From an uncultured Collinsella sp. (GTDB taxonomy: Bacteria; Actinomycetota; Coriobacteriia; Coriobacteriales; Coriobacteriaceae): 15,420 nucleotides of DNA. The position numbers and the translations under genes are program-made. This document shows, in pieces, positions 1,081-15,030 of the stretch; within the stretch, counting starts at the first letter, position 1; the number at the start of each line of letters is the position of its first letter. The stretch covers positions 1-15,420 of the forward strand of contig CAKUHA010000026.1 of assembly GCA_934655755.1 (NCBI GenBank), read 5' to 3'. The notes under the pieces are model-generated. The model saw nothing but the letters and a program-made list of their open reading frames with translations. It was not told the origin of the DNA and did no database searches.

Positions 1081-1160
1081 AGCAGCATCTATGCCACCGC
1101 GAACGGCCCGGCCCTGTGCCCGCCACTCGCAAACGAACTTTAAACGCACGAGGGTTGGCC

Positions 1161-3014
1161 ATGCCGCTTTTCTCGCAACATACCGCCCGGTTCTCGCCGG
1201 ACGTTCCCTTGGAGGGCACCAGCTCTCGCGAGCTGCTCAAGCGGTACCAGCCGCTCGAGACGCTTGCGACCGGCGGTTTTGGCTCCATCGAGATCTGCCG
1301 CGACACGCATCTGCGCCGTCGCGTCGCCATTAAGCGCATCCCCCTCACCGCAAACTCCGGCATGCCCGCCAGCGACATCATGGACGTCCTGCGCGAGGCC
1401 CACACCGCCGCCATGCTTCAGCATCCCAATATCGTTCAGGTCATCGACTTTACGCACGACACCGCCTACGCCTACCTGGTCATGGAATATGTCGACGGCA
1501 TGTCGCTGGCCGAGTTTTTGCATCGCGTGGACGGCCATTCGCTCACCTTTGACGAGGCAGCCGCCATTGCCGACGCGCTGAGCCAGGCGCTTGCCTTCGC
1601 CCACAGCAACGGCGTACTTCACCTGGACATTAAGCCCGCCAACGTGCTCATCGACCACTCGGGCAACGTAAAGCTCACCGACTTTGGCATGGCGCGTCTA
1701 TCGTCTGCCGGCGGCTTTGGCGGCTCGCGCGGCGGCACCATCGGCTACATGCCGCCCGAGCAACTCGATATCGAGACCGGCACGGTCGACGAGCGCGCCG
1801 ATGTCTTCGCCCTCGCCTGCGTCATCTACGAGGGCCTGTGCGGCAGCGCGCCCTTTATGGCGGCAACGCCCGGCGACTCGCTCGGCCGTATCATCGGCGG
1901 CGCCACTTATCCCAGCGAGCTCATTCCGCACTTTCCATCAGGGGCCGAGGCCGCGCTGATGAGCGCCCTCTCCCCCATGCCGCAGGACCGGCCCAACAGC
2001 ATCGAGTCCTTTTGCGACCAGCTGCTCGCCGGCTTGGGCAGCGTGCGCGAGGGTCGTCGCAGCCTGGAGCAGATGGTGGGCGAGCTTTCGGATGATGAGC
2101 GCACGGCAGACGATATTGAATCGCTGCCCTACGAGGACGACGTCATCGAAGTCGATCCCGCGCTCGGCTGGGCCGGCACGCGCTGGAGCCATGCGCGTGA
2201 TTACACCATGCGAGCCATCTCGGCGCTCGCCTGCGGCACCTTTAGCTTTTTGCTGATGCAGACGGCAGGCGTCGCGGCGCTTCCCGGGCTTATCGTTGCG
2301 GCCGTCGCGATTGGGGCGGCCGCCGGCCTGGCCCCGCAGATCGGATCTGCCATCTCGGCCGTGGGCTTTTTGGTGCTTATGGCAAACGCCACCATGCAGG
2401 CGCAGGGCATCCTGTCGATGCTGCCCGTTGCGGTGATCTTTGCCGCCGCCATGTCCGGTTGGTGGATCGCCTGGGGCCGCACCGAGGCCGCCGCGAGCAC
2501 CGCACTCACCTGCGCGCTTGCACTTGGCTGTCTAACTGGCGACGTCCTCCTTGCCGCCGGGGTCGCCGGCGGCATCGCGGCCTTTTGGCTCAGTCCGGCA
2601 AGCTCTGCCGCCGCCACGGGGATGGGCGCGCTTTTCGCCCGCCTGGCCACGGTCGCGCTTTCCGCTGGAGGCGTGTTGGGGCTCGGCAACGTCGCCGCGG
2701 CGCTGGGCGACGCGTTCCTCTGGGCCGCCATTGTGCTGGTCGCGGCGACAGCTGCACTGACATCCCTGCTGCTCAACGCCCATGCCAAGCGTGCCGAGCA
2801 GGGCTCAAACCTTGCCGCCATCGCCGCCATCGCCGTCTGCGGCATCGGCTGCGCGGCGTCGCTTTGTCTTGCACACCATATGGAAATTGCCGGCCTTGCG
2901 GCCGCGGTCGTCGTCAAGGCGGCGGTTGCGGGAATCCTATCCTCTATAATCGTTGGGATATGCCTATATTTGCTCGGATACCAAAGAACCTATACGGAGA
3001 GTGATCTTTCGTGA
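1161..3014 (+). CDS. Ser/Thr protein kinase with a polytopic membrane C-terminal domain
   Basis: The protein is 617 residues from the ATG at 1161. This start is preferred because GAGGG (1150-1154) lies six bases upstream; an upstream in-frame GTG at 1116 lacks a ribosome-binding site. The Hanks-type kinase domain spans about residues 28-290. It has a glycine loop (ATGGFG, 36-41), the ATP-binding Lys58 in VAIK, the catalytic loop HLDIKPAN (154-161, Asp156), DFG (174-176) and GTIGYMPPEQ (192-201). The usual HRD arginine is Leu155. After an acidic linker, residues 350-610 form roughly 8-10 hydrophobic helices rich in Ala, Gly and Val. No PASTA or other recognisable sensor domain is present. The gene overlaps fhaA by four bases and heads the wall-synthesis cluster. 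By position it may play a PknA-like role, phosphorylating the FHA proteins or the SEDS-PBP machine; that is inference. Confidence 0.92.
   Translation: MPLFSQHTARFSPDVPLEGTSSRELLKRYQPLETLATGGFGSIEICRDTHLRRRVAIKRIPLTANSGMPASDIMDVLREAHTAAMLQHPNIVQVIDFTHDTAYAYLVMEYVDGMSLAEFLHRVDGHSLTFDEAAAIADALSQALAFAHSNGVLHLDIKPANVLIDHSGNVKLTDFGMARLSSAGGFGGSRGGTIGYMPPEQLDIETGTVDERADVFALACVIYEGLCGSAPFMAATPGDSLGRIIGGATYPSELIPHFPSGAEAALMSALSPMPQDRPNSIESFCDQLLAGLGSVREGRRSLEQMVGELSDDERTADDIESLPYEDDVIEVDPALGWAGTRWSHARDYTMRAISALACGTFSFLLMQTAGVAALPGLIVAAVAIGAAAGLAPQIGSAISAVGFLVLMANATMQAQGILSMLPVAVIFAAAMSGWWIAWGRTEAAASTALTCALALGCLTGDVLLAAGVAGGIAAFWLSPASSAAATGMGALFARLATVALSAGGVLGLGNVAAALGDAFLWAAIVLVAATAALTSLLLNAHAKRAEQGSNLAAIAAIAVCGIGCAASLCLAHHMEIAGLAAAVVVKAAVAGILSSIIVGICLYLLGYQRTYTESDLS
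2945..2950 (+). promoter_or_regulatory. Possible internal promoter before fhaA
   Basis: A perfect TATAAT -10 hexamer occurs inside the last codons of the kinase gene, in otherwise GC-rich DNA. A start site near 2957 would leave a leader of about 54 bases before the fhaA GTG. No -35 at the right spacing is convincing (TTGCGG at 2926 is only 13 bases upstream). If active, it would let fhaA and later genes be expressed without the kinase. Confidence 0.35.
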
Positions 3015-4018
3015 ACTTCCTGAACATCTTCGAGGACCACGTGGCCGGCATCTTCGGTGCCACCCGTGCCCCGTTCTCCTTTAAGAAGCTTGCCAAGCAG
3101 GCCGCTCGCGACATGGAGGATCAGACTCTGGTGATCAACGGCGTCAACACCGCGCCGGCACTCTATACCATCCTGATCGCCGCCGACGACGATCCCATGC
3201 TCGCCCCGTTCTACCCCGAGCTTTCGCGCGAGGTCCGCGAGTTTGTGAAGGCACAGGCCGAGAAGCGCCGCTACGTCTTTGTCGGTGAGCCCCTCGTTCG
3301 CTTTATGATCGACCCGCAGCTGCGCGCCGGCAAGTTCTCGGTCTTTGCCGAGAACGTCGATGCCCCCACGCTCGGCCGCCTGTACGAGGAAGAGCGCGCC
3401 TACCAAAATGGCCTGGGCCAGAACAACTCCGCCGCAAGCCGCGCCGCCAGCGCTCCCCGCGCCGGCAAGCAGCAGTTCGCCGCTCCGCAGCAGCACCCCG
3501 CCGCCATGCCCCAGCAGCCGGCTCCCCGTGCCGCCGCTCCCGACCCGCTCGCCGTGGCCGACCCCTTTGCGCCCAACGTCCCCGACCCCGCTGCCGCGCC
3601 CATCCCCGTGCCGCAGACCGTCTCCCGTGACGCACTCGCCGGCATGGGCGGAGCCGCCGCGACCGGCGCCGCCGTGGGCCTTGGCGCCGCAGCCGGTATT
3701 GCCTCCAACATGGCGAGCACCCGCGCCCCGCAGCGCCCCCTCGCCCAGCTTGTCGACGTTGTGAGCGGCGAGAGCCACAGCATCACCTCCGCGCAGGTGA
3801 CCATCGGCCGCGAGCGCTCGGTTTCGGACATCGCCCTGCGCGACCCCAACGTCTCTCGCCGTCACGCCCAGCTCACCTTTACCGGCTCGGACTGGTCGAT
3901 CGAGGACCTCAACTCCACCAACGGCACGCTCGTCAACAACCGCCGCATCACGCGCTGCCCGCTGCGCAACGGCGATCTGCTGACGTTTGGCCTGAGCACC
4001 TTTGAATTTAGGGGATAG
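3011..4018 (+). CDS. fhaA: FhaA-like protein: DUF3662 domain plus C-terminal FHA domain
   Basis: This 335-residue protein starts at GTG 3011, overlapping the kinase stop (GTGA), with GGAG at 2996-2999. Residues 1-116 match the DUF3662 domain of mycobacterial FhaA (start MNFLNIFEDHVAGIFG, then a short alpha/beta domain). A Pro/Ala/Gln-rich flexible linker runs from about 120 to 235. The FHA domain covers about 245-335. Its phosphothreonine-binding signature is complete: GR at 266-267, SRRHA at 282-286 and NSTNGT at 301-306. In Mycobacterium, FhaA reads phosphothreonine on kinases and on the MviN/MurJ-type pseudokinase and influences wall synthesis. Its place between a kinase and FhaB gives the same picture here. 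No transmembrane segment is seen. Confidence 0.93.
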   Translation: MNFLNIFEDHVAGIFGATRAPFSFKKLAKQAARDMEDQTLVINGVNTAPALYTILIAADDDPMLAPFYPELSREVREFVKAQAEKRRYVFVGEPLVRFMIDPQLRAGKFSVFAENVDAPTLGRLYEEERAYQNGLGQNNSAASRAASAPRAGKQQFAAPQQHPAAMPQQPAPRAAAPDPLAVADPFAPNVPDPAAAPIPVPQTVSRDALAGMGGAAATGAAVGLGAAAGIASNMASTRAPQRPLAQLVDVVSGESHSITSAQVTIGRERSVSDIALRDPNVSRRHAQLTFTGSDWSIEDLNSTNGTLVNNRRITRCPLRNGDLLTFGLSTFEFRG

Positions 4019-4024
4019 TCGCTT

Positions 4025-4441
4025 ATGAACATCGATATCGTCCTTTTTGCAGGCCGCATCGTCCTGGTCGCCCTGCTCTACATCTTCCTGTTCGCCGTTA
4101 TGAAGACCGGCGTGGGACTCGTGCGCGGCCAGCGTCGCGACTCCGCTATCTGGACGATCGATGTGGACAAGGGCCCCCGCGGCATCCGCGGCATCCACGT
4201 GGACATGCTCGGCCCCGTCATCGTCGGCCGCTCGCCGTCCTCGGACATCTGCATCAACGAACCGTTTGTCTCGGCCTCGCACGCACGCTTTTCGCTGCAG
4301 GGCCCGGCACTCATCATCGAAGACCTCAACTCGCTTAACGGCACGCTCGTCAACGGTCGCCAGCTCGTGGAGCCCGCGACGCTGCGCGAGGGCGACGAGG
4401 TCCAGATTGGCGACGTGGTCATGAAGGTGAACCGTCGATGA
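4025..4441 (+). CDS. fhaB: FhaB-like membrane-anchored FHA protein
   Basis: This 138-residue protein has one N-terminal transmembrane helix (about residues 4-24), a short linker, and an FHA domain from about 60 to the end. Binding residues are visible: GRS at 68-70, SASHA at 83-87 and NSLNGT at 102-107. The first conserved Arg of the usual SRRHA is Ala84 here, a mild deviation. AGGGG at 4010-4014, inside the end of fhaA, is the likely ribosome-binding site, and the gene ends in an ATGA overlap with the phosphatase gene. Mycobacterial FhaB (FipA) is a small FHA protein encoded next to pstP and rodA and linked to division-site and wall proteins. The same neighbours here support an equivalent role. 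Confidence 0.92.
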   Translation: MNIDIVLFAGRIVLVALLYIFLFAVMKTGVGLVRGQRRDSAIWTIDVDKGPRGIRGIHVDMLGPVIVGRSPSSDICINEPFVSASHARFSLQGPALIIEDLNSLNGTLVNGRQLVEPATLREGDEVQIGDVVMKVNRR

Positions 4442-6285
4442 TCGACGAGGAGAACAAATCCGCAACCACGCCCGAGACGCCGGCTGCCCCCGCAGCCGCG
4501 CCGGCTCATGCCGCTCCGACGCGCCCCGCGGCCGTGGAGCCCGAGGACACGGTGTTCTCCCTGCCTCTTTCGCATGTAACTCAAGATTATTCGGCACTCG
4601 CCGATGACGGCGACGCCGACACCGAGCAACTCGACGCCCCTATTGGCGCGCATGCTGCCGAGCAGCCCGCCGCACCGGAAACGACGCCCGCGCCGGCTCA
4701 TTTTGCCGAGCCCGTCGCCGCGGCGATCAACGAGAGCGAAGCGGTGTTCGCCACGCCCGAGCCCGCCGCGCCGGTCTTCCCCGTCGCGCCAACGCCCGAG
4801 GTGACGGCCGCGCCCGCTCCGAGGCCCGAGTCCGCGCCGTCGCACTTCGCGACGGCGGAGCCCATCGCCGTGGAACCGCAGAAGGCCGACGAGGTCCCCA
4901 CTGACCCCGGCTCGACCATCCCGACCCTCGATAAGCCTATCGAGGAGCCCGGCACCGAGCCGCCCGACGCAGACGACACCGTCTCCCCCGGCGACACCGC
5001 CGAGATCGACGTCGCCGCCGTGGAGGCAAAGCTCAACGACCCCGGCTCGACCATGAGCTTTGAGCCGCTGACCGATGAGCGCATCGAGACCGACTCGACC
5101 TATGACGCCGGCACCACCACGCAGCTCATGTGGGGTGCCCGCTCCGACGTCGGCTGCGTGCGCCCGCACAACGAAGATTCCTACCTGGTGCAGTCGCCGC
5201 TCTTTTGCGTATGCGACGGCATGGGAGGACATGCCGCCGGCGAGGTGGCGTCCTCTATCGCCGTCGAGACTATAGCCAAGACGGCACCGCAGTCCGCCGA
5301 CGCCGCACGCCTGGCCGCAGCCGTCGAGGCCGCCAACGCCGCCGTGATCGAGGCCGCCCTCAACGGTTTGGGCAAGCCCGGCATGGGCTGCACGGCCACC
5401 TGCGCCTACATCGAAAACGATACCCTCGCCATCGCCCATGTGGGCGACTCGCGCGCCTACCTGCTCCACGAGGGCACGCTGATTCGCGTGACCCGCGACC
5501 ACTCCTACGTGGAGGAGCTCGTTGACGCTGGCGAGATTACGGCCGACGAAGCCCGCGTCCACCCCAACCGTTCGGTCATCACCCGCGCGCTGGGCTCGGA
5601 CCCCGCCATGTATGCCGACCACTTTACCCTGCACATCGAGGAAGGCGACCGTCTGATCCTATGCTCCGACGGCCTTTCGAGCATGATTCCCGATAGCGAT
5701 ATCGAAAACATCGCCACGCAGTCCTCAACCGCGCAGATTTGCGTCGACAACCTGGTAGACGCGGCACTCGCCGCCGGCGGCCACGACAACGTGACCGTAG
5801 TGGTGGTCGATTTGGTCGACGATGGCGTCATGCGTGAGGCAAAACGCATCCGTCGCCGCAACGTCACCATCGCCGCCGTCCTGGCCCTTGTCTTTGTGCT
5901 GGCGACGGGCATCTGGGCGTACACGGGCATCACCGGCTCGTACTACCTGGGTACCTACCACGGCAACGTCGCCGTTTGGCGCGGCCTGCCTGGCGAGACG
6001 CTCGGATTCAAGCTCCACTGGCTCGAAAGCGAAACCAGCATCAAGCTGTCCGACCTGCCCGAAGACACGCAGAACCGCCTAAAGACGGGCATCCCGCAAA
6101 CAAGCGTCGACGATGCGCAGGACACCATCTCCAAGTACCGTCACCAGATCGACGAGGAGCAGACCCGTCAGGTGATTGACGCGCAAACGATTCGCGACAA
6201 CACCGACCAGGGATCGACTTCCGAGTCGAATTCCGAGAAAACCGCCGAACAGTCCGCCGAGGCCGAAGCCTCCGATAAGAATTAG
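4438..6285 (+). CDS. pstP: PP2C-family Ser/Thr phosphatase (PstP-like) with long N-terminal extension
   Basis: The 615-residue protein starts at the ATG of an ATGA overlap with fhaB. Residues 1-230 are a low-complexity Pro/Ala/Glu/Asp-rich, probably disordered extension. The PP2C catalytic domain covers about 232-460: NED at 245-247, DGMGGH at 260-265, GDSR with Asp337, SDG with Asp411 and GHDN with Asp450/Asn451. These are the metal-binding residues expected of an active Mn/Mg-dependent phosphatase. One transmembrane helix follows at about 475-495, then about 120 residues outside the cell, ending in a Ser/Glu-rich tail. Mycobacterial PstP starts directly with the catalytic domain, so the extension is unusual. 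It contains DPGST twice (156-160 and 201-205) and many Thr/Ser next to acidic residues. Expected role: reversal of phosphorylation by the two kinases and control of FHA binding. Confidence 0.93.
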   Translation: MIDEENKSATTPETPAAPAAAPAHAAPTRPAAVEPEDTVFSLPLSHVTQDYSALADDGDADTEQLDAPIGAHAAEQPAAPETTPAPAHFAEPVAAAINESEAVFATPEPAAPVFPVAPTPEVTAAPAPRPESAPSHFATAEPIAVEPQKADEVPTDPGSTIPTLDKPIEEPGTEPPDADDTVSPGDTAEIDVAAVEAKLNDPGSTMSFEPLTDERIETDSTYDAGTTTQLMWGARSDVGCVRPHNEDSYLVQSPLFCVCDGMGGHAAGEVASSIAVETIAKTAPQSADAARLAAAVEAANAAVIEAALNGLGKPGMGCTATCAYIENDTLAIAHVGDSRAYLLHEGTLIRVTRDHSYVEELVDAGEITADEARVHPNRSVITRALGSDPAMYADHFTLHIEEGDRLILCSDGLSSMIPDSDIENIATQSSTAQICVDNLVDAALAAGGHDNVTVVVVDLVDDGVMREAKRIRRRNVTIAAVLALVFVLATGIWAYTGITGSYYLGTYHGNVAVWRGLPGETLGFKLHWLESETSIKLSDLPEDTQNRLKTGIPQTSVDDAQDTISKYRHQIDEEQTRQVIDAQTIRDNTDQGSTSESNSEKTAEQSAEAEASDKN

Positions 6286-6301
6286 GAAGGGAGTGCCGCT
6301 T

Positions 6302-9172
6302 ATGAGTCGCCGCAACACCGAACTGCTTTTGCTCATCGCCTCGGCGTTCCCCGTCATCCTGCTGTATGCGATGTACGTGCTCACCGCGGGCGCCACGATT
6401 TCCTTTGAGACGCTCGCCGTGCCGATCGGCCTCTTTGCCGCTTTCGCCGCAGCGCATATCGCCGTGCGCATCCTGGCGCCCGGCGCCGACCCCGCCATCC
6501 TGCCCATCGTCTTTGTGCTCTCGGGCATCGGCATCACATTCGTGACGCGCTTGGCCCCCGACCTTGCCATCTCGCAGCTCATCATCCTGTTTATCTCGGT
6601 GGCATTGATGGTGGGAACCCTCGCACTGGTCAAGAACCTCGACGTGGTCATGCGCTACAAATACACCTTTGGCATCATCGGCATCATCTTGCTGATGCTG
6701 CCCATCTTTATCGGCACCACGATCTCGGGCTCCAAGCTGTGGATTCGCATTGCGGGCTTTACCATCCAGCCCGGCGAGTTCGCCAAGGTCTTTATCGTGC
6801 TGTTCCTGGCCGGCTATCTGGCCGAGAACCGCGAACTGCTCTCTATCTCCAACCGCAAGATTCTGGGCCTCAAGATCCCGCGCTTCCGTCTGCTGCTGCC
6901 GCTGTTTGCCGTGTGGGGCGTGTGCCTGCTCGTCGTCGTCTTCGAACGCGACCTGGGCTCGGCCGTGCTGTTCTACACCATCTTCTTGCTGATGCTCTAC
7001 GTTGCCACGGGTCGCTTTTCGTACGTCATCATCGGCCTTGCGCTGCTTGCCGTTGGAGCCGTGGGCGCCTACAAGTTTCTGTCGCACGTTCAGGTACGTT
7101 TCCAGATTTGGGCCGATCCGTTTAAGGATGCCCAGGGTCAGGGCTACCAGATCGTGCAGTCGCTCTTTTCGCTCGCCGACGGCGGCCTGGTGGGCGTCGG
7201 TATCGGCAACGGCATGGCAAACAACATCCCCGTCGTCGAGTCCGACTTTATCTTCTCGGCCATCGGCGAGGAGATGGGCCTTTTGGGCGGCGGCGCCGTG
7301 CTTATCCTGTTTATGCTCTTCGCCGTGCGCGGCCTCACCACGGCCGCACGCGCCAAGTCCGACCTTGCTGCCTTTAGCGCCACCGGCCTTACGGCAGCCA
7401 TCAGCTTCCAGGCCTTCTTGATTGTGGGCGGCGTAACCCGCTTGATCCCGCTGACCGGCGTCACTCTGCCCTTCATGAGCCAGGGCGGCTCCTCGCTGTT
7501 GGCGAGCTTTATCATCGTCGCGCTGCTGCTGCGCGCCGGCGACGAGGCGACCGGGCGCGAAGCCGAGCTCACCGGAACCGGCACCATGGCCGCCATCACC
7601 GATGACCAGGTCGCATCCGCCGCAGCCCCGACCGGCACGCGCTTTGCAACCTCGTCTTCTTACGGCCGAGGCAGCCACTCCGCCGGTTCGCGCATGCGCC
7701 GTCGCCTGCTCGACACGCCCGAGTCCGGCGTACTTGGCCGCGTGGCGCTTGCAAACCGCCTGACCCGCGCAGTGTTCGCCTTTACGGCGCTGTTCGCCAT
7801 CCTTATCGGCAACCTCACCTATGTCCAGGTCATCAAGGCCAAGGACTACCAGGACATGCCGACCAACAACCACACCATCGCCCGCTCCAAGTACATCCAG
7901 CGTGGCTCCATCATCACGTCCGACGGCGTGACGCTGGCCGAGTCGCTGCAGCAGGAGGACGGCACCTACGCCCGCTCCTATCCCAATGGCAATATGGCCG
8001 CGCACGTGGTGGGCTACGTGAGCCAGCAGTACGGCACCGCGGGTGTTGAGAGCGTTATGAACGACACGCTCACCGGCTCCAAGGATTACTCCAGCTGGAA
8101 CAACGCCATCGCATCGCTCGCGGGCCAGACTCAGCCGGGCAACACCGTCAAGCTCACGATCGACTCGCGTATCCAAACGGCTGCCGAGCAGGCGCTCAAG
8201 GGCTTTAAGGGCGCCGTGGTGGTCATGGACCCGCGCACCGGTGCGGTCCTTGCATGCGCCAGCTCGCCCACCTACGACAACACCAACATCGACGGCCTGC
8301 TGCAGGCGGGCGGCGGCGAGGACGGCTCCATGTACGACCGTGCCATGGATGCGTTGTACACCCCAGGCTCCACGTTTAAGGTTGTCACCCTTTCCGCAGC
8401 GCTCGAGACCGGCACCGCCACGCTTTCGAGCACCTACCAGGCGCCCGGCTCCATGGATATCGGCAACGCGCCGGTCACCAACTACGACAACGAGAGCTAC
8501 GGCACCATCAGCCTGCAGCAGGCCTTCGCCGTGTCGTCCAACGTCGTCTTTGGCCAGGTGGCCAACGAGGTCGGTTCCAGCACGCTGGTACAGTTTGCCA
8601 ACGCCTTTGGCTATGGGCAAAAGCTGGGCCAGGACCTTACCTCCGCCGCCTCCATCATGGCCGACCCGTCGCTCATGACCGAGTGGGAGACCGCTTGGGC
8701 AGGCGCCGGCCAGCCCGTCGGCATGGACCACACGCCCGGCCCGCAGACCACGGTCATGCAAAATGCCGTGATTGCCGCGGCCATCGCTAACAGCGGCGTG
8801 GTCATGGATCCGTTCTTTGTATCCCAGGTGCTCGCCCCGGACGGAACCGTGGTTAAGACCACGCAGTCCCGCTCGCTGGGCCAGGCCGTCAGCTCGGCCA
8901 CGGCCGACCAGGTCAAGCAGGCCATGCTCGCCGTCGTCCAGTCCGGCACCGGTACCGATGCCCAGATACCGGGCGTCAAGGTCGCCGGCAAGACCGGCTC
9001 GGCCGAGACCGGCGGCACCAACGTCAACTCCATGTTCGTTGGCTTTGCACCTTATGATTCACCCACGGTTGCCATCTCGGTAGCCCTGGAGGATTACGAC
9101 AAACATGACGTCAAGGCGGCCAAGATCGCCGGCATCGTCCTGACCGCGGCACTTGCCGCACAGGGAGCGTGA
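6302..9172 (+). CDS. rodA-pbpA: RodA/FtsW SEDS glycosyltransferase fused to class B penicillin-binding protein
   Basis: One uninterrupted frame encodes 956 residues. The ATG at 6302 is chosen because AAGGGAG (6287-6293) lies eight bases upstream and the protein then begins MSRRNTELLLLIASAFPVIL, as SEDS proteins do; the frame is open further upstream but overlaps pstP. Residues 1-412 are a polytopic SEDS polymerase of lipid II, with GSKLWIRIAGFTIQPGEFAK, the catalytic-site Asp315 in ESDFIFSAIGEEMG, and SQGGSS at 393-398. A cytoplasmic linker (about 412-485) leads to a second membrane anchor (about 487-508). A class B PBP follows, with STFK (active Ser690), SSN at 745-747 and KTG at 897-899. 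It lacks PASTA domains and resembles mycobacterial PbpA. The fusion should join glycan polymerisation to cross-linking on the outer membrane face. Mycobacteria encode these as adjacent separate genes. Confidence 0.95.
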   Translation: MSRRNTELLLLIASAFPVILLYAMYVLTAGATISFETLAVPIGLFAAFAAAHIAVRILAPGADPAILPIVFVLSGIGITFVTRLAPDLAISQLIILFISVALMVGTLALVKNLDVVMRYKYTFGIIGIILLMLPIFIGTTISGSKLWIRIAGFTIQPGEFAKVFIVLFLAGYLAENRELLSISNRKILGLKIPRFRLLLPLFAVWGVCLLVVVFERDLGSAVLFYTIFLLMLYVATGRFSYVIIGLALLAVGAVGAYKFLSHVQVRFQIWADPFKDAQGQGYQIVQSLFSLADGGLVGVGIGNGMANNIPVVESDFIFSAIGEEMGLLGGGAVLILFMLFAVRGLTTAARAKSDLAAFSATGLTAAISFQAFLIVGGVTRLIPLTGVTLPFMSQGGSSLLASFIIVALLLRAGDEATGREAELTGTGTMAAITDDQVASAAAPTGTRFATSSSYGRGSHSAGSRMRRRLLDTPESGVLGRVALANRLTRAVFAFTALFAILIGNLTYVQVIKAKDYQDMPTNNHTIARSKYIQRGSIITSDGVTLAESLQQEDGTYARSYPNGNMAAHVVGYVSQQYGTAGVESVMNDTLTGSKDYSSWNNAIASLAGQTQPGNTVKLTIDSRIQTAAEQALKGFKGAVVVMDPRTGAVLACASSPTYDNTNIDGLLQAGGGEDGSMYDRAMDALYTPGSTFKVVTLSAALETGTATLSSTYQAPGSMDIGNAPVTNYDNESYGTISLQQAFAVSSNVVFGQVANEVGSSTLVQFANAFGYGQKLGQDLTSAASIMADPSLMTEWETAWAGAGQPVGMDHTPGPQTTVMQNAVIAAAIANSGVVMDPFFVSQVLAPDGTVVKTTQSRSLGQAVSSATADQVKQAMLAVVQSGTGTDAQIPGVKVAGKTGSAETGGTNVNSMFVGFAPYDSPTVAISVALEDYDKHDVKAAKIAGIVLTAALAAQGA

Positions 9173-9234: not shown

Positions 9235-9304
9235 ACACGGCCCCAGCGGCCACACATTTGGTACTACACACATCGTTGAGCGAATAGTTATGTTAGGAGC
9301 AGGA

Positions 9305-11242
9305 ATGGAACAGAGGGTCCTCGGGGGAAGATACCTCCTCAAGGATAAGGTGGGAACGGGCGGCATGGCGACCGTCTTCCGTGCGCAGGATCAGGTCCTC
9401 GACCGCACGGTTGCCGTCAAGATCATGCTGCCGCAGTATGCCGGCGACGCCACCTTCGCCGCCCGCTTTAAGCAGGAGGCCCAGGCAGCAGCCGGCCTGT
9501 CGTCCCCCTACATCGTGGGCGTCTACGATTGGGGCAAGGACGGCGACACCTATTACATCGTCATGGAATACCTGCGCGGCACCGACCTCAAGAGCGGCAT
9601 CAAGAGCCACGGCGCCCTCGATCCCAAGAAGGTCGCGCAGATCGGTTCTCAGATCAGCTCCGCGCTTTCGGTCGCCCACAAGCACGAGATCATCCACCGC
9701 GACATTAAGCCGCAGAACATCATGGTGCTTCCCGACGGCAACATCAAGGTGATGGACTTTGGTATCGCGCGCGCCAAGAACAGCCACCTCACGCAGGACA
9801 ACAACGTGCTGGGCACCGCCCACTATGTAAGCCCCGAGCAGACCCGCGGTCAGGACCTCGGCCCTACCTCGGATATCTACTCGCTGGGTGTCGTCATGTA
9901 CGAGTGCGCTACCGGCCGCGTGCCCTTCGACGGCGATGACGCCATCTCGGTCGCACTCAAGCAGGTCAACGAGCTGCCCATCCCGCCGAGCCAGATCAAC
10001 TCCGGTGTCGATGCCGACCTGGAGCGCATCATCCTCAAGTGCATGGAGAAGGACCCGGCCAACCGCTTCCAGACGGCCGACGAGCTGCGCCAAGTGCTCA
10101 ACAGCTACCTGTCCGGCCGCGCCGTCAACGTCTCGGAGCCCACGCGCATTATCGGCGCCGCCGGCGATCTGGGCGCCACCAAAACCCGCGAACTTTCTGA
10201 CTCGACGCGCGCCATGGTGCGCCCCGTCTCGGGCGTGAGCGGCCAGACCAACCCCCGCAGCGCTGTCTCGGGTTCCACCGGCTCCTATGAGGCCGAGAGG
10301 CCCAAGTCCAACAAGAACAAGATCATCGCCGCCGTGGTGGCCGCCGTCGCCGTCATCGGCATCGTCGTGGCCTTTGCCACGGGTATGTTCAACGGCGACC
10401 TGGTAACGGTCCCCGACGTATTGGGCAAAGATCAGGAGACCGCCGTCGAGCTGATCCAGGAAGCCGGCCTGGAGGTCGGCACCGTCGACCAGAGCTACAA
10501 CGACGATGTCGACGAGGGTAAGGTCGCCGAGCAGACCCCCAACGGCAACACCAAGAAGCCCAAGGGCACGAGAGTGAACCTGGTGATCTCCAAGGGCCCC
10601 AAGCCCTCCGAGAAGGTTGAAGTCCCGCGGCTTGTCGGATTGACCAAGGACCAGGCCGAGGCCGCACTGGCTAGCGTGGGCCTGAAGGGCAGCGCTTCCG
10701 AGGAGGCCAACGAGGCCGAAGAGGGCCAGGTCTTTGAGCAGGGCACTGCCGCCGGTAAAGAGGTCGAGAAGGGCACGACCATCTCCTACAAGGTCTCCAG
10801 CGGCCCGGACACCACCTCGGTGCCCGACCTGACCGACATGACCGAGGCCCAGGCGCGCAACGCCCTCGACATGGCCGGCTTTGGCGTCGACGTGAACTAC
10901 CAGGAAAACGACTCGGTTACCGAGGGCACTGTTATTAGCTGGAACCCCAGCGGCAAGCAGAAGCCCGGCGCAACGATCACCGTCGTCATCGCCAAGAAGT
11001 CCGGCAAGGCCAGCGTCCCGGGCAACCTGTACGGCAAGAGCATCTCCGCCGCCGTCACCGCGCTCAACAATGCCGGTTTCTACAACATCGGCTTCTGCGA
11101 CCAGAACGGCAACCCCGTAAGCGGCAACGAGAACGCCACCGTTACGGGCGTCTCCCCCACCGGCAAGCAGTCCACCGACAGCACGATCACGCTGACGGTT
11201 TCCATCTCCGGCTCGGGAGACGACTCCGAGTCCAGCAACTAA
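9305..11242 (+). CDS. pknB: PASTA-domain Ser/Thr protein kinase (PknB type)
   Basis: The protein is 645 residues from ATG 9305. AGGAG at 9295-9299 favours this start over the in-frame ATG at 9290. Kinase domain, about residues 10-275: GTGGMA loop (17-22), Lys39 in VAVK, HRDIKPQN (131-138, Asp133), DFG (151-153) and GTAHYVSPEQ, so all catalytic residues are present. A Ser/Thr-rich juxtamembrane stretch contains several TR and STR sites. One transmembrane helix spans about 340-362. Four extracellular PASTA repeats follow, near 367-435, 438-503, 506-570 and 571-636; the last is divergent, with an inserted CDQNGNPVSGNENAT segment. PASTA repeats bind muropeptides or lipid II, so this kinase probably senses wall status and phosphorylates FHA and wall proteins. 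It is the last gene of the cluster, as in mycobacteria. Confidence 0.96.
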   Translation: MEQRVLGGRYLLKDKVGTGGMATVFRAQDQVLDRTVAVKIMLPQYAGDATFAARFKQEAQAAAGLSSPYIVGVYDWGKDGDTYYIVMEYLRGTDLKSGIKSHGALDPKKVAQIGSQISSALSVAHKHEIIHRDIKPQNIMVLPDGNIKVMDFGIARAKNSHLTQDNNVLGTAHYVSPEQTRGQDLGPTSDIYSLGVVMYECATGRVPFDGDDAISVALKQVNELPIPPSQINSGVDADLERIILKCMEKDPANRFQTADELRQVLNSYLSGRAVNVSEPTRIIGAAGDLGATKTRELSDSTRAMVRPVSGVSGQTNPRSAVSGSTGSYEAERPKSNKNKIIAAVVAAVAVIGIVVAFATGMFNGDLVTVPDVLGKDQETAVELIQEAGLEVGTVDQSYNDDVDEGKVAEQTPNGNTKKPKGTRVNLVISKGPKPSEKVEVPRLVGLTKDQAEAALASVGLKGSASEEANEAEEGQVFEQGTAAGKEVEKGTTISYKVSSGPDTTSVPDLTDMTEAQARNALDMAGFGVDVNYQENDSVTEGTVISWNPSGKQKPGATITVVIAKKSGKASVPGNLYGKSISAAVTALNNAGFYNIGFCDQNGNPVSGNENATVTGVSPTGKQSTDSTITLTVSISGSGDDSESSN

Positions 11243-11335: not shown

Positions 11336-11381
11336 TGATGTAGCGTTGCTGCCCATGGATGAACACGGTTTTAAACCAGAA

Positions 11382-11410
11382 GAGCCCGGCACCGTTGCGG
11401 TACCGGGCTC
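11382..11410 (-). terminator. Distal terminator-like hairpin behind the displaced tRNA 3' end
   Basis: GAGCCCGG pairs with CCGGGCTC (8 bp); one mismatch and an inner ACCG/CGGT stem with a three-base loop follow. Read on the minus strand it ends in TTCTGGTTTAAAA. It sits 10 bases beyond the displaced tRNA 3' end, the same arrangement and the same TTCTGGTTT tail as the hairpin next to the intact tRNA. Confidence 0.55.
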
Positions 11411-11420
11411 GATCAATCTC

Positions 11421-11443
11421 TGGTGCCCCCGGGCGGATTCGAA
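11421..11443 (-). repeat. Displaced copy of the tRNA-Arg 3' end (att-like direct repeat)
   Basis: These 23 bases are identical to 11551-11573, the CCA end, acceptor 3' strand, T-stem 3' strand and T-loop of the intact tRNA-Arg gene; one further matching base precedes each copy. Identity stops abruptly after the T-loop. A tRNA 3'-end direct repeat is the usual footprint of integrase-mediated insertion. The segment between the copies is only about 107 bases, so any element has been lost. Confidence 0.8.
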
Positions 11444-11470
11444 AACTCCCCCCGCGGGGAAATTGGTGAC

Positions 11471-11496
11471 GCGGGTGTCGACGGCCCGAATCCGCC
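11471..11496 (+). repeat. Inverted copy of the tRNA-Arg variable region and T-arm
   Basis: Twenty-four of 26 positions match the reverse complement of 11562-11587, that is, the tRNA from the end of the anticodon stem through the variable loop and T-arm. The only differences are CC for TT at the start of the T-loop (11485-11486). It could pair with the tRNA 3' half in a read-through transcript, and its last ten bases also pair with the displaced 3' end at 11432-11441. Confidence 0.75.
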
Positions 11497-11517
11497 GGCA
11501 GCCCCCACAAACCAGAA

Positions 11518-11541
11518 ACGGCGCCGCTCTCGCGACGCCGT
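11518..11541 (-). terminator. Proximal terminator-like hairpin of tRNA-Arg
   Basis: Read on the minus strand, ACGGCG and CGCCGT enclose a CGC/GCG stem with a T-G wobble and a GAGA tetraloop, giving about 10 bp. The hairpin begins nine bases after the tRNA CCA end and is followed by TTCTGGTTTGTG. The U-tract is short, so some read-through is likely. Confidence 0.6.
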
Positions 11542-11550
11542 CAGATTCCC

Positions 11551-11626
11551 TGGTGCCCCCGGGCGGATTCGAACCGTCGACACCCGCTTTAGGAGAGCGG
11601 TGCTCTATCCCCTGAGCTACGGAGGC
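11551..11626 (-). tRNA. tRNA-Arg (anticodon CCT)
   Basis: The minus strand folds into a standard 76-base cloverleaf with encoded CCA. The acceptor stem is GCCTCCG/CGGGGGC with one T-G wobble, the D-stem is GCTC/GAGC, the anticodon stem is CCGCT/AGCGG, the loop is CTCCTAA with anticodon CCT, the variable region is GTGTC and the T-loop is TTCGAAT. It reads AGG arginine codons. The T-stem (GACGG/CCGCC) has an A-C mismatch at positions 50/64. The gene has its own promoter, about four bases upstream of the mature 5' end at the expected start site. Confidence 0.97.
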
Positions 11627-11688: not shown

Positions 11689-11742
11689 AGTCATTGGGGA
11701 CGTTCTTTAATGACTAGTCGTTTAAGAACGTCCCCAATGACT
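11689..11742. repeat. Palindromic intergenic repeat, REP- or MITE-like
   Basis: Arms 11689-11707 and 11724-11742 are perfect reverse complements over 19 bases (AGTCATTGGGGACGTTCTT). The 16-base loop holds another copy of AATGACTAGT (11709-11718), repeated again at 11736-11745. The structure is more elaborate than a terminator and lacks a clear T-run, though it could terminate DUF956 transcription. Its right arm includes part of the DUF956 stop codon (11743-11741). It looks like a short dispersed element; copy number cannot be judged from this window. Confidence 0.7.
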
Positions 11743-12139
11743 AGTTTCCTTTGTGGAAGAGGCTTTTGATAACGCTTGGGATGCTCTTGGCGCCCTTGGC
11801 CGTCACATCGATAAAGTCAGGAGAGCGCACGAGTTTATCCTCGTCTACGTACTTGCGCACCGCGCGAAGCGTCTCTTTGTCGTCGCGCGTCGAAAACGTA
11901 AAGTGGCCGTTATCCTTGGTAAAGATGGCAAAGCGCGTGATCTTCTTGGTGCCGCGCAAAACCTCGGCCGCGATGTAGTCGACCTCGTCCCACGGGATTT
12001 GAATATAATCCTCGGGGTTGCGCTCGTTGTAGTACTCAAATGCCTTGTTGCCCACCATCACGTTGCCGTGGCTGGTAAGCCCCATCAGACAGGTTGCCGG
12101 CGTCGCCAGATCGACCGTGCTGTTCTGAGATTGCGCCAT
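11741..12139 (-). CDS. DUF956 family protein associated with the mannose PTS
   Basis: This 132-residue soluble protein begins MAQSQNSTVDLATPATCLMG at ATG 12139, with GGAGGG (12155-12150) ten bases upstream. An earlier in-frame ATG at 12190 would start inside the terminator hairpin and is rejected. The sequence matches DUF956, which in many low-GC Gram-positives and Coriobacteriia lies next to manXYZ-type PTS genes (ManO in lactic acid bacteria) and has been suggested to modulate that operon. The 'HGNVMVGNKAFEYYN' and 'YIQIPWDEVDYI' stretches resemble a PH/GRAM-like beta fold. It lies 120 bases after the EIID gene, beyond a hairpin, and seems to have its own promoter. Its stop codon falls in the palindromic repeat. 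Confidence 0.9.
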   Translation of the reverse strand: MAQSQNSTVDLATPATCLMGLTSHGNVMVGNKAFEYYNERNPEDYIQIPWDEVDYIAAEVLRGTKKITRFAIFTKDNGHFTFSTRDDKETLRAVRKYVDEDKLVRSPDFIDVTAKGAKSIPSVIKSLFHKGN

Positions 12140-12167
12140 GCGCGCCTCGCCCTCCAAATAAAACAAT

Positions 12168-12203
12168 CGGACCGCATCCAGTGTACCCACCGGGTGCGGT
12201 CCG
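12168..12203 (-). terminator. Terminator of the mannose PTS operon
   Basis: A 12-base-pair stem (12168-12179 with 12192-12203, CGGACCGC core, one G-T wobble) encloses a 12-base loop. On the minus strand it is followed by ATTGTTTTATTT, a good U-rich tail. It lies 57 bases after the EIID stop codon and would separate DUF956 from the PTS transcript. Confidence 0.8.
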
Positions 12204-12259: not shown

Positions 12260-13180
12260 TTACATGAAGCCGCAGACGCGACCGATGATGCCGACGGCGA
12301 AGAGGGCCAGGATGATGACGATCGGGCTGACCTTCTTCTTGAGGAGCTTGCAGACCAGCAGGGTCAGGCACACGGCAGCAAGGCCGGGGATGAGCTGATC
12401 GAGGTTAGCCTGAAGCGTGGTGACCTTCACCTGATCAAGGGCAGTGGCACCGACGGAGTTGTACATCGTCAGTGCTTCCTTGACGCCCTCGGAACCGGAA
12501 GGCAGGTTGGCCCAGTCAATGAAGGCGCCGGCAGACTGCGTAACCTTGGAGACGACCGGGGTGAAGGAGATGGACACCCAGCGCTCGACCAGGGCACCGA
12601 TGATGAACATACCCAGGATGGAAGCACCCTCGGTGACCTTGCCCATCAGACCACCGGAGAGGTCCTTGGCGATGGAGGAGCCGACCTTGTAGCCAAACTC
12701 CTGCGTGTACCACAGGAAAGCGTAACGGATGATGTTCCACGCGAAGAAGAACAGCAGCGGGCCGGCAATGCTACCGGACAGGGCCAGGGAAGCGCCCAGA
12801 GCGCCCAGGATCGGGCGAAGGGTGAACCAGAAGGCGGGGTCGCCGACGCCGGCGAGCGGGCCCATCATACCGACCTTGACGCCCTGGATGGCGACGTCGT
12901 CGATCGGAGCACCGTTGGCGCGCTCCTCCTCGAGAGCGAGGGTAACGCCAATGACGGGGGCGGAAACATAGGGATGGGTGTTATAGAACTCCAGGTGGCG
13001 CTTAAGAGCGGCGATCTGGTCATCCTTGCTGGTGTAGAGCTTCTTGATCGCAGGGATCATTGCGAAGCACCAGCCGCCATTCTGCATACGCTCGTAGTTC
13101 CACGAGCCCTGAAGGAACTGATGACGGAAGCAAACCTTCTTGCGGTCAGCCTTGGTAAGCTGAATCTTGTTCTCTGCCAT
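12260..13180 (-). CDS. manZ: PTS mannose/fructose/sorbose-family IID component
   Basis: This 306-residue membrane protein starts at ATG 13180, with GGAGGGGAG (13197-13189) eight bases upstream; the GTG at 13189 overlaps that site and is rejected. It begins MAENKIQLTKADRKKVCFRH, and its FLQGSWNYERMQNGGWCFAMIP segment and 'GPLAGVGDPAFWFTLRPI' are typical of EIID. The N-terminal half is soluble or amphipathic. Hydrophobic segments cluster in the middle (LALSGSIAGPLLFFFAW) and at the C-terminus (VSPIVIILALFAVGIIGRVC). With EIIC it forms the sugar channel; in several bacteria this pair is also a bacteriocin and phage receptor. Third gene of the operon, 16 bases after EIIC. Confidence 0.95.
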   Translation of the reverse strand: MAENKIQLTKADRKKVCFRHQFLQGSWNYERMQNGGWCFAMIPAIKKLYTSKDDQIAALKRHLEFYNTHPYVSAPVIGVTLALEEERANGAPIDDVAIQGVKVGMMGPLAGVGDPAFWFTLRPILGALGASLALSGSIAGPLLFFFAWNIIRYAFLWYTQEFGYKVGSSIAKDLSGGLMGKVTEGASILGMFIIGALVERWVSISFTPVVSKVTQSAGAFIDWANLPSGSEGVKEALTMYNSVGATALDQVKVTTLQANLDQLIPGLAAVCLTLLVCKLLKKKVSPIVIILALFAVGIIGRVCGFM

Positions 13181-13196
13181 ATGTATCACTCCCCTC

Positions 13197-14015
13197 CTAC
13201 TCGTAATCGTTCAGAATGTCGCCGAGCGGGTCGCCGGAGCCACCGCCCATGCCGCCACCCTGCTTGGCCAGATCCTTAAGGCCAAGGTAGATGAGGGCAA
13301 GGGAGATGCCGATGAGGCCAAGGGCGATCAGCGTGAGCTGAGGGATGGCAGCAAGGACAAAGCCGAGGATGAAGAACGGCCAGGTCTCCTTGGTGGCCAT
13401 CATGTTGATGACCATGGCGTAACCGACGGAAGCGACCATGCCGCCGCCGACAGCCATGCCGCCGGACAGCCAGTCAGGCATAGCGTTGAGCGCGTTGGTA
13501 ACTGCCTCGGCCGGGATGATGCACAGCAGGACGGCCGGGATGGCGATACGAAGGCCCTGCATGAGGATGGCAGCGTACTGCCAGCGCTCGATGCCAGCGA
13601 AATCGCCCTTCTCGGCGCAACCGTCCATAGCGTGAGCGATAGCGGTAGCCAGGGTACGGCAGATCATGGTCAGGAACAGGCCGGCGACCGACAGCGGGAC
13701 GGCGACGGCGATGGCGGCGGTAACGGCCTTCGACGGATCGGTAGCGCCGCCGTTGAGGGCGAGCACCATGATAATCGAAGAAGCGACCGATGCCAGAGCA
13801 GCGTCAGGCGCGACGGCGGCGCCGACGTTAGCCCAGCCAAGGGCCATCATCTGGAGCGAACCGCCCAGGAGGATGCCCTCCTGAAGGTGACCGGTTACGA
13901 GACCGATAAGCGTGCATGCCACGAGCGGCTGATGGAACTGGAACTCATCCAGAATGCCTTCCATACCGGCAAGCAACGCGACAATCGCAACAAGCAGAAT
14001 AGTGATTGCAGACAT
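13197..14015 (-). CDS. manY: PTS mannose/fructose/sorbose-family IIC component
   Basis: This 272-residue, highly hydrophobic protein starts at ATG 14015 after AGGAGGG. The early segment 'FQFHQPLVACTLIGLVTGHL' and 'GGSLQMMALGWANVGAAVAPD' are the characteristic EIIC motifs around the sugar site. About eight to ten transmembrane segments are visible. The C-terminus is a Gly-rich cytoplasmic tail (KQGGGMGGGSGDPLGDI). The stop codon sits in the ribosome-binding site of the EIID gene, so the two are probably translated together. The substrate cannot be assigned from sequence alone; mannose or glucose is most likely, with fructose, sorbose or amino sugars possible. Confidence 0.95.
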   Translation of the reverse strand: MSAITILLVAIVALLAGMEGILDEFQFHQPLVACTLIGLVTGHLQEGILLGGSLQMMALGWANVGAAVAPDAALASVASSIIMVLALNGGATDPSKAVTAAIAVAVPLSVAGLFLTMICRTLATAIAHAMDGCAEKGDFAGIERWQYAAILMQGLRIAIPAVLLCIIPAEAVTNALNAMPDWLSGGMAVGGGMVASVGYAMVINMMATKETWPFFILGFVLAAIPQLTLIALGLIGISLALIYLGLKDLAKQGGGMGGGSGDPLGDILNDYE

Positions 14016-14033
14016 GTATCGGACCCTCCTTTA

Positions 14034-15023
14034 CTATGCTTGAGCGGCCAGTTCGGCCTTAGCTTTCTTCAACATGGCATCGAGATCCTCGGAGGAATCC
14101 GAAGGAACCTTGCGAACCTCGAACTTGACGCCCTTGGCCTTGAGGGCCTCGAGAGTCTTGACGTCGTCATCGCCCATAGCGACGGCGTTGGTGACGACGA
14201 CCTTGCCCTTGGAGTGGGCCATGGAACCGATGTTGGCTTCCTTGATGTCAACGCCGGCCTCGATGGCCTTGAGCAGATCCTGCGGGTTCTCGAAGAGCAG
14301 CATGGCCTTGGTATCACCAAAGCGCGTGTCCTTGACGACCTCGGCCATCTTCTTGATGGGCACGACGTTGGCATGGACTCCCGGAGGGGCAGCCTGCTCG
14401 ATCATGGTCTTGCGGAGCTCGTCGTGAGCAACGCCGTCGGAAACCACGATGATGCGGTTGGGGTTGATCTGCTTGGTCCACGTGGTGGCCACCTGACCAT
14501 GAAGCAGACGGGTGTCGATACGGACGTGGGCAATCTTGATGTGCCCATCGCCGATGACCGTTCCCGGAGGAATGGCGCCTGCAGGAGCAGCAGCGGCCGC
14601 AGCCGGCTTCTTCTCCTCGGGCTCCAGAGACTCGGGCTTGACGCGCACGCCAGCCTTAGCCTCAGTCACGAGATGTTTTGCGATCGCATGTGCAGTGTTC
14701 TTTGCGTCAAAGCGCTGCGAATATGCCTCGATGAGCATAGGCAGGTTGACACCGGTGACGATAGCCCAGGAATCGTGGCCCTCGATGAGCCCGCTGATCT
14801 GGTTGAACGGCGTGCCGCCCCACAGATCAACGAGGAAGAGCACCTGCTCCTGGTCCTCGAAGGAAGCGATTGCTTCCTCGACCTTGGCACGGAAGTCGTC
14901 GGGGCCCATGCTCGGCTCGAGCGAGACCACGGCTACAGACGGCTGATCGCCAAAGACCATCGAGCCCGTCTGCTTGATTCCAGCAGCCAAGTCCCCGTGG
15001 CTAGCAAGAACAATACTTACCAT
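14034..15023 (-). CDS. manX: PTS mannose-family fused IIAB component
   Basis: The protein is 329 residues from ATG 15023. AGGAGG (15036-15031) is seven bases from this ATG but only four from the GTG at 15026, so the ATG is preferred. The IIA domain covers about residues 1-130, with the phospho-accepting His9 in LASHGDLA and DLWGGTPFN. A Pro/Ala/Glu/Lys linker lies near 131-158. The IIB domain runs from about 160 to the end, with phospho-His175 in RIDTRLLHGQVATTW, the same number as in E. coli ManX. HPr passes phosphate to IIA, then IIB, then the sugar entering through IIC/IID. First gene of the operon, with a clear AT-rich leader upstream. Confidence 0.96.
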   Translation of the reverse strand: MVSIVLASHGDLAAGIKQTGSMVFGDQPSVAVVSLEPSMGPDDFRAKVEEAIASFEDQEQVLFLVDLWGGTPFNQISGLIEGHDSWAIVTGVNLPMLIEAYSQRFDAKNTAHAIAKHLVTEAKAGVRVKPESLEPEEKKPAAAAAAPAGAIPPGTVIGDGHIKIAHVRIDTRLLHGQVATTWTKQINPNRIIVVSDGVAHDELRKTMIEQAAPPGVHANVVPIKKMAEVVKDTRFGDTKAMLLFENPQDLLKAIEAGVDIKEANIGSMAHSKGKVVVTNAVAMGDDDVKTLEALKAKGVKFEVRKVPSDSSEDLDAMLKKAKAELAAQA

Positions 15024-15030
15024 CACATAA

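Follow-up and report, generated by a model that had tools for sequence, protein, structure and literature searches.

We describe a natural fusion between a SEDS (shape, elongation, division and sporulation) protein and a class B penicillin-binding protein (PBP), encoded in a 15,420-nucleotide stretch of DNA from an uncultured Collinsella sp. (contig CAKUHA010000026.1), which as a whole we refer to as the window. The fused gene occupies positions 6302 to 9172 of the forward strand, where a single open reading frame with an ATG start, stop included, encodes 956 amino acids. Its product is very probably a single-chain bifunctional peptidoglycan synthase, a third SEDS-PBP system that is orthologous to the RodA-PbpA pair of a kinase gene cluster and that most likely has a single origin at the root of the class to which the genome nearest to the window belongs.

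A sequence-only reading of the window had proposed a natural fusion, and the domain content bears this out: PF01098, PF21922 and PF00905 all match within the one 956-residue frame, which joins a SEDS polymerase to a PbpA-type class B PBP. The SEDS half comprises residues 1-416 (6302-7549, on the forward strand like all other parts of the gene). PF01098 matches residues 66-414 with an E-value of 1.3e-73 and 248.6 bits (cut-off 26.4), covering profile positions 13-352 of 356. This core match, together with an aspartate equivalent to the catalytic D262 of E. coli RodA (D315, 7244-7246, from an alignment with 8tj3), places this half in the SEDS family. In an engineered E. coli RodA-PBP2 fusion the D262A change blocks polymerisation (PMC6207328). 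The motifs QPGE (residues 156-159, 6767-6778) and SQGGSS (residues 393-398, 7478-7495) are also found in the SEDS half. The PBP half contains a PBP_dimer_2 domain (PF21922, residues 534-616, 7901-8149, E-value 3.2e-25) followed by a transpeptidase domain (PF00905, residues 637-940, 8210-9121, E-value 9.2e-57). The transpeptidase domain carries the SxxK, SxN and KTG motifs of a class B PBP, i.e. STFK, whose S690 is the catalytic serine by motif (8369-8371), SSN (residues 745-747, 8534-8542) and KTG (residues 897-899, 8990-8998). Every motif named in the earlier reading is present. In class A PBPs, which likewise join a polymerase and a crosslinker in one chain, the polymerase is a GT51 domain. 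The 956-residue protein has no Pfam match to GT51 at an E-value of 0.001, so it is not a class A PBP.

The helices of an AlphaFold2 model and the charges of the loops fit a protein with 12 helices in the SEDS half, a linker on the inside, a 13th helix and the PBP domains on the outside. This agrees with the suggestion that the SEDS C-terminus and the PBP N-terminus are both cytoplasmic. The PBP transmembrane helix (residues 487-511, 7760-7834) is modelled as part of a longer helix, residues 473-511. Two of the 12 transmembrane helices are predicted ahead of the Pfam SEDS core, at residues 8-58 (6323-6475). In structure-based fold searches, all of the 50 matches listed in each were PBP chains.

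The fusion had been thought possibly lineage-wide, and we find it to be so. We searched 119 genomes from the class of G001, the genome nearest to the window, and the fused junction lies in a single frame in 109 of them, while two separate genes in its place were found in none of the 119. Loci were taken from 99 of these genomes, and the SEDS and PBP parts share a frame in all 99, although the frame of G031 is broken further on, within the PBP half, and that of G024 is cut by a contig end. A further 10 of the remaining 20 genomes have the junction in a single frame (G078, G069, G057, G008, G096, G011, G080, G092, G030 and G033), and in four the locus is cut at contig ends (G095, G066, G094 and G102). 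The fused rows represent 15 of the 17 families sampled. Of the named loci, 20/22 have Collinsella names and about 90-93% DNA identity to the window, and several more distant relatives carry the name Coriobacteriia bacterium. The database names of P0205, P0233 and P0240 combine FtsW and FtsI. Two individual loci deserve description. In the single-contig genome G031 (loci L193 and L075) a stop ends the fused frame near residue 813, within the PBP half, and about 250 bases downstream the similarity picks up again in another frame, perhaps through insertion or decay. The fused frame in G092 (L249) is 889 residues long, with about 100 residues missing from the end of its SEDS half; this is a draft genome and an artefact is possible.

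An error of sequencing or assembly that joined two genes is effectively excluded by this distribution. We found no point in its favour, and a stop or frameshift between about 7540 and 7760, which had been named as the observation that would overturn the fusion, is absent from the window, the junction being open in all of the 109 genomes above. Protein cluster P0003 alone has 32607 member sequences, and Atopobium parvulum entries in the PDB are numbered 523-950, and their sequence is that of the C-terminal half of the L063 fused protein. Furthermore, in comparisons with four close Collinsella loci dN/dS is 0.028-0.065 in the linker, 0.030-0.043 in the SEDS half and 0.039-0.059 in the PBP half, which points to selection on the linker as well as on the two enzymes.

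In the loci sampled elsewhere in the phylum the two genes are separate. In 31 of 31 picked loci from other Actinomycetota rodA and pbpA are adjacent and on the same strand. These loci were chosen among the matches listed in a search of 296 genomes from across the phylum, including the class itself, a choice that favours good matches and long frames. A PP2C phosphatase gene lies upstream in 30/31 and FHA matches lie upstream in most; a PknB-like kinase gene lies downstream in 28/31 (in one case weak and 8 kb away), with room for an extra gene in some. In 27/31 the best candidate start of pbpA lies within the end of rodA, with an overlap of 4 bases in 17. The fusion is orthologous to this adjacent pair, whose neighbourhood in mycobacteria the sequence-only reading had noted. 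When fusion was mapped on a tree built from concatenated rows (84 fused and 30 separate), as had been proposed, a single change was required (SH-aLRT 100). The tree was made with a quick method, is unrooted, has some long branches flagged, and leaves out L075, L122, L136, 14 of the 30 loci L001-L030 and the named loci L038-L059. Most likely the gene originated once, in the ancestor of the class, from a pair of neighbouring genes that overlapped. Fusion at this point, as opposed to fission, is the simplest reading, and a small indel in the rodA-pbpA overlap could have been enough to create it.

Some candidates for further fusions in other Actinomycetota were rejected. Those long open frames that were fetched proved to be separate genes (G414, G351 and the long frames among L136-L144), and no fusion was found in 18 loci from 17 genomes of the family of G155, which we take to be Mycobacteriaceae. 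In G362, G230 and G433 the alignment over both genes arises only from a search that continues across stop codons. The separate rodA and pbpA genes of these genomes (L129, L130 and L229) do share a frame and are parted by only one or two stops, a near-fusion state. An apparent join of PP2C and SEDS in L139 was also set aside, since the intervening frame is rich in arginine and proline and, by eye, is probably out of frame. The two protein searches of public genomes and metagenomes in general cover the 120 best rows of each, and there may be fusions beyond the phylum.

Which SEDS-PBP pair has been fused? The sequence-only reading regarded the protein as a single-chain model of the elongasome core, and this part of it is not supported. 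G001 has three SEDS genes, as do all six class genomes searched for them. On contig C6 of G001 a separate SEDS gene (69796-70878) lies beside a gene for a 689-residue PBP, with MreC at 73838-74278 and MreB at 74738-75700. In G003, G004, G005 and G041 mreB and mreC likewise have a SEDS gene other than the fused one at a distance of no more than about 4 kb, so that a different SEDS occupies the mre-linked place in all five class genomes where all three were searched. MreB and MreC themselves were found in 10/10 class genomes searched. In a SEDS tree, on which the labels FtsW and RodA were assigned by gene neighbourhood where known, the SEDS half of the fusion is placed among SEDS proteins from the kinase cluster in other classes (11 rows, 100/100) and outside the mre-linked group. 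The fused protein also falls short of the NCBIfam equivalog cut-offs for RodA (195.5 of 336.7 bits) and MrdA (273.4 of 455 bits), and of that for FtsW (241.1 of 337.5 bits), which argues against an FtsW-FtsI pair. In its favour as a PbpA of the kinase cluster are the PBP_dimer_2 domain and a place between genes for PP2C with RodA and for PknB. Given the separate mre-linked SEDS and the tree placement, we regard the fusion as the RodA-PbpA of the kinase cluster. That it is instead the catalytic core of the Mre elongasome, the RodA-PBP2 pair linked to mreB and mreC, is very unlikely on this evidence. The idea is not baseless, because RodA-PBP2b of C. glutamicum supports polar elongation (PMC8262863).

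A related question is the role of the kinase-cluster pair. There is a real, if somewhat less than even, chance that the fusion acts mainly in division or cell separation and not in elongation; this concerns the role only and is compatible with the kinase-cluster assignment. Mycobacterial PbpA has been described as septal and as a substrate of PknB (PMC3989709), and the loss of RodA-PBP2b disturbs cell separation in C. glutamicum, where rodA mutants have separation defects (PMC8262863). However, an FtsW-like SEDS is also present in the class, and no localisation data on the class turned up in the literature searched. In mycobacteria rodA and pbpA are co-transcribed with pstP, and in an M. smegmatis pstP knockdown growth was restored by pstP though rodA and pbpA stayed down (PMC6554272).

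The two halves are joined by a linker flanked by conserved motifs. The first, G-D-x-x-T-G (residues 413-418, 7538-7555), follows the last transmembrane helix of the SEDS half, and the second, L-G-R-x-A-L-x-x-R (residues 478-486, 7733-7759), marks the junction with the PBP. The cytoplasmic linker, here in its long form (residues 417-477, 7550-7732), is modelled with low confidence except for its last residues, where helix 473-511 starts; pLDDT is below 50 at residues 418-436 and 438-472. Measured between predicted transmembrane helices, the linker of the window protein is residues 417-486, i.e. 70 amino acids. The long linker described in the earlier reading is not a general trait. The distance between residues 413 and 478 is 43-80 in the family of G001 (f1) and 47-63 in f3, and outside these two families the linker has only 17-34 residues (22-34 in f5 and 17-20 in the 12 remaining families).

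Among the 84 fused proteins, the first motif has G413 in 80, D414 in 83, T417 in 77 and G418 in 79. At the same sites 30 separate SEDS proteins have G413 in 0, D414 in 7, T417 in 1 and G418 in 2, and 29/30 have serine at 413. The junction motif has L478 in 84, G479 in 83, R480 in 83 and R486 in 84 of the same proteins. As separate pbpA genes begin near window residue 483, residues 478-480 lie upstream of them, and a search for LGR in 31 tails of separate SEDS proteins and 31 starts of separate PBPs gave no instance. A looser junction pattern matches 5/31 separate SEDS tails, three of which have EILIGGR at or near the end. The junction conservation may be explained in part by shared ancestry alone; the mean frequency of the majority residue is 0.72 over residues 478-490, scarcely higher than the 0.71 of the SEDS half. 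A more speculative proposal, which we consider rather doubtful, is that the junction is functional and more than a tether: the two motifs would act together as a coupler in the cytoplasm, relaying state from one enzyme to the other, and T417 would be a possible PknB target read by the FHA neighbours, which would make the protein a kinase-gated one-chain synthase across the class.

The linker is also where the fusion might be undone. Two proteins could be made from the one frame, by an internal start or by a protease cut in the linker, and the fusion would then exist at the gene level only. The linker of the window protein is long and predicted to be disordered, the engineered E. coli fusion is partly cut in its linker (PMC6207328), and 33 of the 84 fused rows have a GTG, ATG or TTG codon at residues 481-486, where separate genes start (GTG in 30). 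Yet the other 51 rows have no start-like codon there, ATG occurs at these residues in only 2/84, and methionine anywhere in residues 478-489 in 6/84. In the window the in-frame start-like codons at 429, 465, 481 and 491 have, by eye, no obvious ribosome-binding site. We consider two separate products unlikely and infer that both enzymatic activities and the intact chain are present in the cell. The 1:1 stoichiometry of the two enzymes would be fixed only if the chain escapes processing.

Some observations weigh against a single-chain synthase kept throughout the class. No ortholog was found in 6/119 class genomes (G015, G042, G070, G104, G114 and G118); five of these are less than 90% complete, but G070, an assembly of 290 contigs, has a completeness rating of 95%. 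The intact fused protein may be dispensable in G031. The pTM of the AlphaFold2 model is only moderate. Finally, against five more distant relatives dN/dS is 0.26-0.65 in the linker, 0.19-0.25 in the SEDS half and 0.26-0.36 in the PBP half, and the linker range, lying above that of the SEDS half, indicates that the long linker is loosely constrained.

If the single-chain synthase works as its parts suggest, the N-terminal SEDS half, with D315 outside, would polymerise lipid II. The chain would then cross the flexible cytoplasmic linker and re-enter the membrane through the PBP helix. The tethered PbpA-type half may activate the SEDS half through this helix and a short pedestal, and as the C-terminal part of the chain would crosslink the new strand outside. 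Such a system would stand beside an FtsW-like SEDS and the mre-linked RodA-PBP2. The operon suggests control by PknB, PP2C and FHA proteins; catalysis, activation and control are all proposed here by analogy with relatives.

The neighbouring genes of the window, all on the forward strand and assigned with Pfam, are a Ser/Thr kinase gene of the cluster (1116-3014), a FhaA-like gene with FhaA_N and FHA domains (3011-4018), a second FHA-domain gene that is FhaB-like by place (4025-4441), a PP2C phosphatase gene that is PstP-like by place (4438-6285) and, after the fused gene, a PknB-like kinase gene with PASTA domains (9290-11242). Just upstream of the fused gene, AGGAAGGGAG (6284-6293, forward strand) is a likely ribosome-binding site. 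Near the start of the window, the forward strand at 244-954 encodes a 236-residue protein that, judged by eye, has hydrophobic stretches and that lacks a Pfam match at an E-value of 0.001, and the reverse strand at 3-347 presumably holds a gene start resembling dnaX. A tRNA-Arg (CCT) lies at 11551-11626 on the reverse strand, overlapped on the opposite strand by an ORF-like frame (11346-11615). Further reverse-strand genes (12260-15026 and 11741-12190) encode EIID, EIIC and EIIAB of a mannose/sorbose-family PTS and a DUF956 protein.

The closest known system is the RodA-PbpA of the pstP-rodA-pbpA-pknA-pknB cluster of Mycobacterium and Corynebacterium (PMC6554272, PMC3989709), which has the same neighbours, PBP_dimer_2 domain and SEDS clade. 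The difference is that two genes are found there and one chain here, and that the genomes sampled here add an mre-linked SEDS. The engineered RodA-PBP2 and SpoVE-SpoVD fusions (PMC6207328, PMC10449877) were built to hold a SEDS protein and its PBP in a single chain as well, but these are synthetic joins of other SEDS subfamilies, whereas the Collinsella fusion is natural and class-wide. In the PDB, 4jbf, 4qjg, 4r0q, 4r1g, 4r23, 4r3j, 4ra7 and 4n1x (Atopobium parvulum) and 4mnr (Eggerthella lenta) hold the extracellular PBP half only; 4jbf and the L063 fused protein are identical from residue 505 onward, and 4mnr is a relative of the window protein with 43-46% identity. The enzyme pair itself is already known, and the natural one-chain form has been mentioned in print: Nygaard 2023 states that single-ORF SEDS-PBP fusions exist, citing the genome paper of McLeod (PMC10449877). 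We could not confirm the example behind this citation, as none of the 18 loci from the family of G155, nor G414, has a fusion. The McLeod paper is, we assume, that on Rhodococcus RHA1. No description of a class-wide fusion, a single origin or conserved junction motifs was found in the open-access literature searched. What is added here is the distribution, the single change, the correct identity of the pair and the junction motifs.

Signalling between SEDS proteins and class B PBPs has been studied with engineered fusions (PMC6207328, PMC10449877). A natural, class-wide, one-chain synthase would provide homogeneous material for structural and kinetic work and a single-chain model of the partnership, the crosslinking half of which has already been crystallised with bound beta-lactams, and the conserved junction points to residues worth testing. 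For the biology of the class, the finding portrays bacteria with three SEDS systems side by side, including one inside a PASTA-kinase operon.
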